From the NCBI GenBank assembly GCA_030535915.1, contig JAUNQZ010000007.1:1-32254 (forward strand): a DNA stretch of 32,254 nt. Reading direction: 5' to 3'. Position numbers and translations under genes: made by a program. Under the pieces are notes generated by a model, which saw only the letters and a list, made by a program, of their open reading frames with translations, had not been told where the DNA came from and made no database searches. This stretch comes from a bacterium. GTDB lineage: Bacteria; Verrucomicrobiota; Kiritimatiellia; RFP12; DVOR01. Each line of letters begins with the position of its first letter. The first letter of the stretch is position 1. This document shows, in pieces, positions 29,451 through 32,112 of the stretch.

Positions 29451-30176
29451 ATGAAAACTTTCTTCTCACTTTTACTTTTAAGTTTCCTTTTTGGATGCAC
29501 AACGACAACACTCCATGCAGGACTCCCCTCAAGTGTTCAAGCATATCTTCCTGTGACCGCATTGCAACGCTCTGTGGTAAAGATGTTAACGATTCGAGGC
29601 AATGATGTGGGCGAGGGGAGTGCCTTCTTCGCAGGAGCTCCTGGACACCTCGTTACCAATGCACATGTTGTTGATGGCGCCTCACATTTTTATGTGTTTA
29701 TTACAGCACCTGACGGACAATCTGTAGCAATTCACCAAGCCACGATGAAGCACATGGATAAAACACATGACTTAGCCGTACTTGAAGTGCTTGGAGAAAA
29801 TCTTCCACCTGCAATTCCCCTTGCTACAACCGATGCTTTACTCATGCAAGATGTCGTTTCCATTGGCTACCCAGGAGACATTGACGAAGACTATGCCAAA
29901 AGCATTATCGCAAAGCGTTTGCGTCCCGGTAATGTTTTTAACGAACCCGCCGTCCTCGCTTATCTTTTGCCACACTTTACCAAAGGTCACATTGGTAAAA
30001 TTGTTCCAGGGCGCTTCTATCATACTGCTGCAATCGACCGCGGAAACAGTGGTGGCCCCCTCGTCAATCAAGCCGGCGAAGTCGTTGGTATTAACCGCTC
30101 CGCCACCTCTGACCCCTTCTATCCCTTTTACTTCGCCATCCCCGTCCAACACCTCCGTGAACTTCTCGTTAAATAA
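29451..30176 (+). CDS. trypsin-like serine protease, predicted lipoprotein
   Basis: DegP/trypsin-type protease exported as a lipoprotein. The signal ends in the lipobox LFGC with Cys16 as the lipidated residue. The catalytic triad is visible as H72 (VTNAHVV), D107 (THDLAVLEV) and S200 (RGNSGGPLV). There is no PDZ domain: the chain ends soon after the protease fold at 241 residues, so it is a minimal member, unlike DegP or DegS. A basic loop (SIIAKRLRPGNVF) is inserted before the Ser. AAGG lies 6 nt before the ATG; no convincing promoter was found in the 64 bases after uup. It lies next to the cassette at 30183. Substrate unknown. Confidence 0.88.
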   Translation: MKTFFSLLLLSFLFGCTTTTLHAGLPSSVQAYLPVTALQRSVVKMLTIRGNDVGEGSAFFAGAPGHLVTNAHVVDGASHFYVFITAPDGQSVAIHQATMKHMDKTHDLAVLEVLGENLPPAIPLATTDALLMQDVVSIGYPGDIDEDYAKSIIAKRLRPGNVFNEPAVLAYLLPHFTKGHIGKIVPGRFYHTAAIDRGNSGGPLVNQAGEVVGINRSATSDPFYPFYFAIPVQHLRELLVK

Positions 30177-30182
30177 TTTTTA

Positions 30183-30319
30183 ATAAAGGGGACCGTAGAA
30201 AGTCCGGTCAATGGATCGACGCCTGCATTTTTATAAAGGGAACCATAGAAGGTCCGGTCAATGGACGGGCTCCTGTATTTATCCTCGCTTTTGGTCTTCA
30301 CCATAACTTCGCGTGACAG
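30183..30319 (+). repeat. left repeat array (two 50-bp units plus tail)
   Basis: Units begin ATAAAGGG and share TAGAA, GTCCGGTCAATGGA and an ATTTWT end; period 50 bases (30183 and 30233). The tail TATTTATCCTCG...ACTTCG...TGACA (to 30319) is also found, inverted, inside the right array. Each unit holds small palindromes such as CC-GTC...GAC-GG. Confidence 0.75.
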
Positions 30320-30320
30320 A

Positions 30321-30911
30321 TTAAGGACACCAAGAAACGATACCTGTTGCTGGATGTTTTTTCCGCCATTGGATAAAATCAGGATAATTGCGTATTCCGT
30401 CAGCGATTACAGCTTGATAATATTCAATTCCCATAATGTGTTCATCATCAGGTGTGCGATATTTGAGTTCCAAAATCGCGCGTCGTGTTTCAGGGGTCAA
30501 AACGGCTTTGATTCTTTCGGCCACCGCTTCAAAATATCCGTCAAACTGCGAGCCCTTTAAAATCTGAATCATATCAATTTGCCACACTTCGTTGTCAAGC
30601 ATAAACCAGACATGAAATTCTAGACAGGATTCTTCCGTATTGGCAAGATTGCGGTATTCCATACGAGTAACTGCCGGATTGGCACAAATTTTTTGAACAG
30701 CTTTGAAACTTTCAGCAATATCCAATTGATCCGTGTAAATATGAAAATCAATATCTCTGTGCTTCATCAATAATCCCATCGCCATCGAGCCAACCTGATT
30801 GACGACAGCACCAATGGATTCCCAAGCCTGCCGAACACCGCTTTTTTCAATAACCTGCAAGGCTTTTTCAAAGTTGTTTTGAGCAATAACTTCAATCTTG
30901 TTGATGTCCAT
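30321..30911 (-). CDS. nucleotidyltransferase-fold protein of unknown role
   Basis: A 196-residue protein. The motif VGSMAMGLLMKHRDIDFHIY matches the GS...DxD pattern of nucleotidyltransferase-fold enzymes, with the two Asp residues as likely metal ligands; a later Asp in EVWQIDMIQ may be the third. Close relatives in gut bacteria are, as I recall, often labelled 'phosphoglycerate mutase family', which the motifs here do not support. LKYRTPDDEHIMGIEYYQAV is a conserved-looking C-terminal block. Start 30911 has AAAGGGA upstream. Codon use is less biased than in the neighbours, with more Gln/Asn/Ile and A-ending codons, and the gene sits alone inside inverted repeats, consistent with acquisition. 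Substrate (nucleotide, antibiotic or RNA) unknown. Confidence 0.8.
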   Translation of the reverse strand: MDINKIEVIAQNNFEKALQVIEKSGVRQAWESIGAVVNQVGSMAMGLLMKHRDIDFHIYTDQLDIAESFKAVQKICANPAVTRMEYRNLANTEESCLEFHVWFMLDNEVWQIDMIQILKGSQFDGYFEAVAERIKAVLTPETRRAILELKYRTPDDEHIMGIEYYQAVIADGIRNYPDFIQWRKKHPATGIVSWCP

Positions 30912-30939
30912 AGCAAATCCCTTTATTTGAGCGTTTCTT

Positions 30940-30968
30940 AATATACCACCTTCCAAAGGGAGTTGCCA
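30940..30968 (-). promoter_or_regulatory. promoter of the cassette gene
   Basis: On the minus strand: TGGCAA (30968-30963), a 17-bp spacer, and TATATT (30945-30940) preceded by TGG. The gene thus carries its own promoter inside the cassette. Confidence 0.6.
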
Positions 30969-31004
30969 ATGTGAAAGGATGATTTTTTGCAAAACACGAG
31001 ACGC

Positions 31005-31190
31005 TTGTCATACGAAGTCTCGGAGACGACAAAAATCGAGGATAAATAGAGAACCCATCTATTGACCGGGTCTTCTATAACCCCCTTTATTAAAAATGTA
31101 GGCGTCGATCTATTGGCGGTTCTTCTACAAGCCTCTCTACTAAAAGAGAGGAGTCCCTCTATAGACTGGACCTTCTATAAACCCCTCTAT
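31005..31190 (-). repeat. right repeat array (three 50-bp units plus tail, inverted)
   Basis: Units at 31041-31090, 31091-31140 and 31141-31190 are exactly 50 bases each. Read on the minus strand, the first two mirror the left array in order (the ATCGACGCCT and ATTTATCCTCG blocks), and the third is extra. Units differ at many positions but keep TAGAAG and the palindromic GGTC...GAT part. Confidence 0.75.
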
Positions 31191-31198
31191 AAAAAATA

Positions 31199-31224
31199 AA
31201 AACGCACGAATCTCCGTGCGTTTT
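31199..31224 (-). terminator. ssrA terminator
   Basis: AAAACGCACG (31199-31208) pairs perfectly with CGTGCGTTTT (31215-31224); on the minus strand it follows the tmRNA 3' end by 8 bases and is succeeded by a long T-run. Confidence 0.85.
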
Positions 31225-31232
31225 ATTGAAAT

Positions 31233-31584
31233 TGGTGGAGGTGGCGGGAGTTGAACCCGCGTCCAAGACAGCTTCACAGCGATGTCTACGTGCGTAGCCA
31301 ATCTATTATCTTATCGTCTGCACGCCGATTGGCAGGCTGACAAACGACTTACCTTCATGATGATACAAGGTTGTGTTCCCGAGGGTCCGGTTCACAGCAG
31401 GATCTGCTAATCGACGCTTCCACACTCAGCAGACATCGGTGCTTCAGCGACGCGGAATAACTTAGGCCGCGTAGGCGAAATTAGGTTTCGCAGTTAGTTT
31501 TTGATCGATATTTAACGGGGCCAACGATCATCCCCGGCACGCAACCGAAGTTCCGACTTGCCCTGTCGAGACCTGGTCACCCCC
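31233..31584 (-). ncRNA. ssrA: transfer-messenger RNA (tmRNA)
   Basis: Rescues stalled ribosomes and tags the nascent peptide. The mature 5' end is GGGGGTGACC (31584 downward). It pairs with the 3' CACCTCC, followed by A and an encoded CCA ending at 31233; pair 3 is G-U, the alanine identity element. The T arm GCGGG-TTCAACT-CCCGC is clear. The resume codon is GCG at 31491-31489 and the reading frame gives AKPNFAYAA with stop TAA at 31464-31462. The end Ala-Ala is the usual protease signal, but the residue before is Tyr where most tags have Leu. The resume site is preceded by AACTAACT. Length 352 is normal for the one-piece form. Confidence 0.96.
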
Positions 31585-31627: not shown

Positions 31628-31960
31628 GTTGAATATGCTTCAATTGAAAGATTCTTCACTGCTAGTGGATGCTCTATCTTTAAACCTAAGTATCCTGTTT
31701 TAAGTATTCTTTTGAAAAGAACAACACCTCTAAATCGCTGAAAGATTACCTCAAAAATGATCACTCCCTCACCATACACTTCAAGCTTAATCCTTTTAAT
31801 TTAATCCATAAAATAGCTTTTAAAAATTGTCTAAATCAATTTATTCTCAAAACAAAAGAAGCCACTTCAACGAATGCTCCACATATCAAACACAACCCCA
31901 CGATTCTTACTTTAAATATCATTGATAATAAATTTCAATGTTGCAGGTCATTATTTCAAT
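31628..31960. other. AT-rich gene-free region
   Basis: No supported gene, RNA or repeat. One plus-strand frame stays open for over 100 codons (about 31690-32020), but it has no ATG or ribosome site, an atypical composition rich in Asn, Phe and Ile, and runs into the palindrome array, so it is not called. Confidence 0.4.
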
Positions 31961-32039
31961 TATCGGCGATATTCTTTTTAAATATCGCCGATAATCATTT
32001 CGAATATCGCCGAGATATTTGATTTAATTATCGCCGATA
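31961..32039. promoter_or_regulatory. array of four phased TATCGCCGATA palindromes
   Basis: The 11-bp palindrome TATCG-N-CGATA occurs at 31961-31971 (central G), 31983-31993, 32005-32015 (one mismatch, CGAGA) and 32029-32039. Centres are 22, 22 and 24 bases apart, about two helical turns, so a protein would bind on one face. Flanks are AT-rich. It looks like an operator or partition-type array for a gene or element beyond the right edge; the binding protein is unknown. Confidence 0.65.
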
Positions 32040-32112
32040 AACGCATTCACTTTCGATGAAACAAACAGTACATTTCAGCCTCTTCCATTTCTGGAATAAC
32101 GGAAATGAATGC

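Follow-up and report, generated by a model that had tools for sequence, protein, structure and literature searches.

In Streptococcus pneumoniae, BOX elements have the structure boxA-boxB(n)-boxC (PMC3049150), and in Porphyromonas gingivalis, BrickBuilt is a MITE in which a leader and a tail enclose a minisatellite (PMC4596501). Pairs of MITEs can also mobilise the DNA that lies between them, as in the TIME composite elements (PMC4133298). Here we describe a nucleotidyltransferase (NTase) gene that stands between two facing repeat arrays beside ssrA, in a stretch of 32,254 nucleotides from an uncultured gut bacterium of the Kiritimatiellia, hereafter called the window. The repeats resemble BOX in having two unlike end modules and a variable number of tandem central modules, and in being dispersed, MITE-like, restricted in host range and present also as lone modules. 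The host and the sequences are different, and the comparison is one of architecture, not of boxA, boxB or boxC sequence. Moreover, in contrast to BOX, the arrays here often stand alone, and we found no IS whose ends match. With BrickBuilt, the repeats share the minisatellite inside a MITE, the small inverted ends and the species-specific, intergenic distribution, while the unit is 50 bp long instead of 23 bp and the host is again a different one. The TIME composites are similar to the window in that pairs of miniature elements surround other genes, but they possess functional outer inverted ends and their transposition is proven, whereas the pair in the window is without outer ends. The family is a new one of the known BOX/BrickBuilt modular type, as matched by architecture.

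About 46 merged loci with these units or ends are present in the genome (1.67 Mb, 173 contigs, 91% complete). The copies of the 50-bp unit and of the ends were located by search, and were then read stretch by stretch. Three modules compose the family: endB (~108 bp), the 50-bp unit and endA (~50 bp), in the order endB, 50-bp unit (0-2), endA. The intact copies hold zero or one unit, and the copy with two units, in which endB precedes both, is cut at a contig end. Outside the MITEs, lone 50-bp units occur in arrays of one to three. Several of the repeat loci are located at contig ends, which is expected because repeats break assemblies. At L025, at L062, at L066 and in the window (31148-31224), the 50-bp arrays start exactly at the T-tract behind a hairpin that resembles an intrinsic terminator, suggesting that these arrays prefer to insert at T-tracts.

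The intact copies span 154-208 bp, have no coding capacity and bear terminal inverted repeats (AGNCTGTCGCRCGAA); in one intact copy, the inverted ends match over 18 nt at 83%. Many copies have CTAG on both edges, which may be a target duplication or the element's own ends. The 169-nt C28 copy folds into a hairpin of -83.3 kcal/mol (z -9.7 versus mononucleotide shuffles). The intact copies are hairpin MITEs, and hence non-autonomous DNA of the mobile type. In the window, the left arm alone forms no hairpin (z 0.8), and the right arm folds weakly. The 50-bp unit was also considered as a structured RNA, but single units fold only weakly (mean z -1.2 versus mononucleotide shuffles). REP elements moved by RAYT were rejected on the absence of Y1_Tnp (PF01797) from the 91%-complete genome. 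The searches for DDE_Tnp_1 and Y1 revealed no intact transposase, and a single broken DDE_Tnp_1 fragment that lacks the ends of this family. A previous analysis of the window from its letters alone (the sequence-only reading) had proposed a search of related genomes for the 50-bp unit; among the 16 congeneric genomes searched, neither the units nor the ends have any copy. The exact endA pattern matched nothing outside its own genome in the genome-contig and viral-contig collections, and the exact pattern of the 50-bp unit had no match in the viral contigs.

The part of the window around the NTase gene contains the following features, given with coordinates and strand.

29451-30176, +, trypsin-like serine protease gene, with no close relative in the genus
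30177-30227, +, left 50-bp unit 1 (nhmmer E 3.4e-15)
30228-30277, +, left 50-bp unit 2
30278-30321, +, left endA module (MITE end), E 4.3e-14, tip towards the gene, without the terminal CTCCTAG
30318-30995, segment similar at the DNA level to loci of Lentisphaerota MAGs (81-84% for L082-L084)
30321-30911, -, NTase gene, encoding 196 aa from its ATG, or 223 aa if translation began at an upstream TTG
30940-30969, -, promoter-like site of the NTase gene, TTGGCA-18-TATATT, with similar sites in several donors
30998-31046, -, right endA module, degenerate, E 2.8e-4, tip towards the gene
31050-31096, -, right 50-bp unit, innermost (E 4.8e-14)
31098-31145, -, right 50-bp unit, middle (E 9.9e-13)
31148-31196, -, right 50-bp unit, outermost (E 5.9e-14), beginning at the ssrA terminator U-tract
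31199-31224, -, ssrA intrinsic terminator
31233-31584, -, ssrA (tmRNA), tag AKPNFAYAA

Two left units (30177-30277, +) face three right units (31050-31196, -), each array ends in a conserved inner tail of ~45-50 bp, and the NTase gene (30321-30911, -) is located between them. The sequence-only reading had described mirrored arrays with inner tails, two units on each side and a right border at 31190. The mirrored arms are indeed present, matching at 76-79% over 110-141 bases (E ~1e-19), far above chance. The two units on the left, which are 82% identical, are as described, while the right array contains three units instead of two and runs to 31197. The same reading correctly recognised that the arrays bracket exactly one gene with its own promoter (one ORF and the promoter-like TTGGCA-18-TATATT), and that the right end meets the ssrA terminator, at the U-tract of which the array begins. 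On the other side, the left array begins immediately 3' of the protease stop codon, and the end of the NTase ORF at 30321 directly abuts the left tail.

Both arms in the window are half-elements, composed of units and endA, with endB missing on each outer edge. The endA tips are the outer ends of the intact element, and in the window they both point at the NTase gene. The gene therefore lies outside both elements, and is not carried as cargo by a composite element. The similarity between the two tails is 64%, whereas other endA copies in the genome resemble the left one at up to 80% (over 50 columns) and the right one at up to 78%. Since the tails are closer to other genomic copies than to each other, they are not a co-evolved or matched pair. 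The units point the other way: the CAAT variant is found in four of the five window units and in one of the 31 others, and the mean similarity between left and right units is slightly higher than that to other units (0.69 versus 0.61), and thus the arms have some shared history.

Half-elements of units and endA pointing inward on a gene were seen only at this site in the genome. We looked for other cargo between the same arrays, as had been suggested; there is no second convergent pair among the 46 loci, and hence no such cargo in this genome. A density of ~46 loci in 1.67 Mb would by chance alone yield 0.2-0.3 convergent pairs within 0.7-1 kb. This estimate is rough, as the search for weak units was confined to the surroundings of loci already found. 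A left-right pairing of such size is not rare. Four other genes, encoding an FMN reductase, a sigma factor, a flavodoxin and a resolvase, are each singly bracketed by the repeat. These genes are native: the genus contains relatives that are about 34-69% identical to them.

Next, we consider the gene itself. The encoded protein belongs to the Pol-beta nucleotidyltransferase superfamily, and the invariant G41, S42, D53, D55 and D113 residues (GS...DxD and the third Asp) are intact. In the predicted structure (pLDDT 94), the nearest folds are the Cid1-type terminal transferases, with a moderate TM of 0.5-0.6. No Pfam or NCBIfam family scored above its cut-off, and PADLOC assigned no defence family. 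The dN/dS is 0.05-0.12, and the gene is, as judged from sequence comparison, under purifying selection and kept functional.

Where did the gene come from? Its closest relatives are in five Lentisphaerota MAG loci, with 80-89% protein identity and with rumen and cecum among the samples, while the relatives in congeners have just 45-50% identity. In the tree, the window NTase is placed within the Lentisphaerota clade with 98% SH-aLRT; the AU test does not reject its grouping with the congeners (p 0.29). By these relationships, the gene is judged to have been horizontally acquired from a Lentisphaerota-like gut bacterium. At both ends, the DNA similarity to the donors stops no more than a few bases from the repeat tail. 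The Lentisphaerota donor loci that were checked contain no such repeats and no similar flanking inverted repeats.

In the Lentisphaerota MAGs (L082, L083, L084, L085 and L086), the NTase gene and about 80 bp upstream of it are located at mostly unrelated sites, and therefore it seems to be a gene that often moves on its own. The NTase is absent from the phage and viral records, and the plasmids hold relatives at 56% or lower; carriage of the gene by phage is unsupported.

The ssrA-adjacent DNA is different in the congeners examined, and the arrangement of the window is absent there. In G016, alaS is upstream of ssrA and a tRNA-like gene is downstream, and in G009 the same tRNA-like gene is beside ssrA together with an IS110-type gene (all names read from sequence). 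In G009, this gene (L151 812-1744), by eye a transposase gene of the IS110 type, is downstream of the tRNA-like gene near ssrA. The protease gene beside the arrays (29451-30176) has no close relative among the 16 congeneric genomes, and may have been acquired too. The varied neighbourhood of ssrA and the protease without relatives in the genus indicate that the whole stretch is plastic. The sequence-only reading had held that arrays confined to this site, and retained together with the gene in every relative, would speak against its proposal. In fact, the arrays occur genome-wide, and the congeners have neither the arrays nor the gene at ssrA. Upstream of ssrA, the AT-rich stretch 31959-32040 contains four palindrome-like copies of ATCGSCGAT, one of them imperfect, with 22-24 bp spacing, perhaps a protein-binding array.

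How did the NTase gene come to lie between the two arrays? We consider it probable that it is an acquired gene that has two half-copies of the BOX-like MITE as its borders, in the plastic region downstream of ssrA. A Lentisphaerota-like gut bacterium would have been the source of the gene and its promoter, and the gene would have been retained since the enzyme is useful. The BOX/BrickBuilt-like element has spread as a hairpin MITE through the intergenic regions of the species, presumably by a transposase acting in trans, and the arrays of 50-bp units vary in their number of copies and are likely to recombine. The arrays would then border the gene because repeats litter the intergenic DNA; perhaps the MITE ends were also the points of breaking and joining when the foreign DNA was integrated. 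It is the way in which the gene was joined in that we infer here, while the repeat family, the loss of endB, the direction of the ends, the foreign source of the gene, the purifying selection on it and the matching borders are all directly supported by the data. The foreign-DNA borders fit both inner tails to a few bases, a tighter agreement than random decoration would predict, and a point against this explanation. The CAAT variant and the slightly raised similarity between left and right units also count against it, as does the AU test in not rejecting a grouping of the window NTase with the congeners. Only the tight fit between the foreign DNA and the MITE tips is not accounted for.

A stricter version of this explanation holds that two independent repeat insertions flank the gene and are unlinked to its arrival. 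The 0.2-0.3 pairs expected by chance and the four other close repeat pairs around native genes favour such a coincidence, but the junctions lie a few bases from the stop codon and the edge of donor homology, on both sides, and endB is gone from both sides; on balance, it is rather unlikely that chance alone was at work. Alternatively, the gene may have been joined in one event, at the break left by MITE excision or between adjacent endA ends. Such a capture at the MITE tips would explain why the foreign similarity (30318-30995) ends at both endA tips, why inward half-elements are found only in the window, and why the left and right units have the CAAT variant in common. However, both tips are degenerate and mutually dissimilar, the genome holds no second case, the other bracketed genes are native, and there is no reconstructible intermediate. 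We accordingly find it improbable. The general form of this idea is that the ends of BOX-like MITEs are joining points, at which short segments of foreign genes are taken up by MITEs that have broken or been excised, with gene-facing half-elements left behind; we put it forward, on the basis of the tight border fit, as a conjecture, and a quite doubtful one.

The sequence-only reading had favoured a non-autonomous mobile gene cassette. Part of this survives, in that the repeats are hairpin-MITE DNA and the gene came in horizontally, while the cassette itself fails on the anatomy of the arms. Inverted arrays that form the ends of a cassette and are recognised in trans, as in the TIME composites, would agree with the 76-79% inverted arms around one horizontally acquired gene, and the mobilisation of DNA between MITE pairs is known (PMC4133298). 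Nevertheless, the outer endB ends are absent and the inner ends are directed at the gene, no target duplication was seen, no other cargo lies between convergent arrays in the genome and its other bracketed genes are native, the donor loci are without the repeats, and no intact DDE_Tnp_1 or Y1 transposase was found, so that a cassette is highly improbable. The probabilities given to these alternatives overlap with that of the acquired gene bordered by MITE half-copies, because the latter would hold whether or not the repeats had a role in the arrival.

These findings add an apparently species-restricted repeat family of the BOX/BrickBuilt type in an uncultured gut lineage, and provide a well-bounded example of a single gene passing between gut bacteria that are only distantly related. 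If the borders coincide for a causal reason, this would suggest a way in which miniature elements assist foreign genes in settling.
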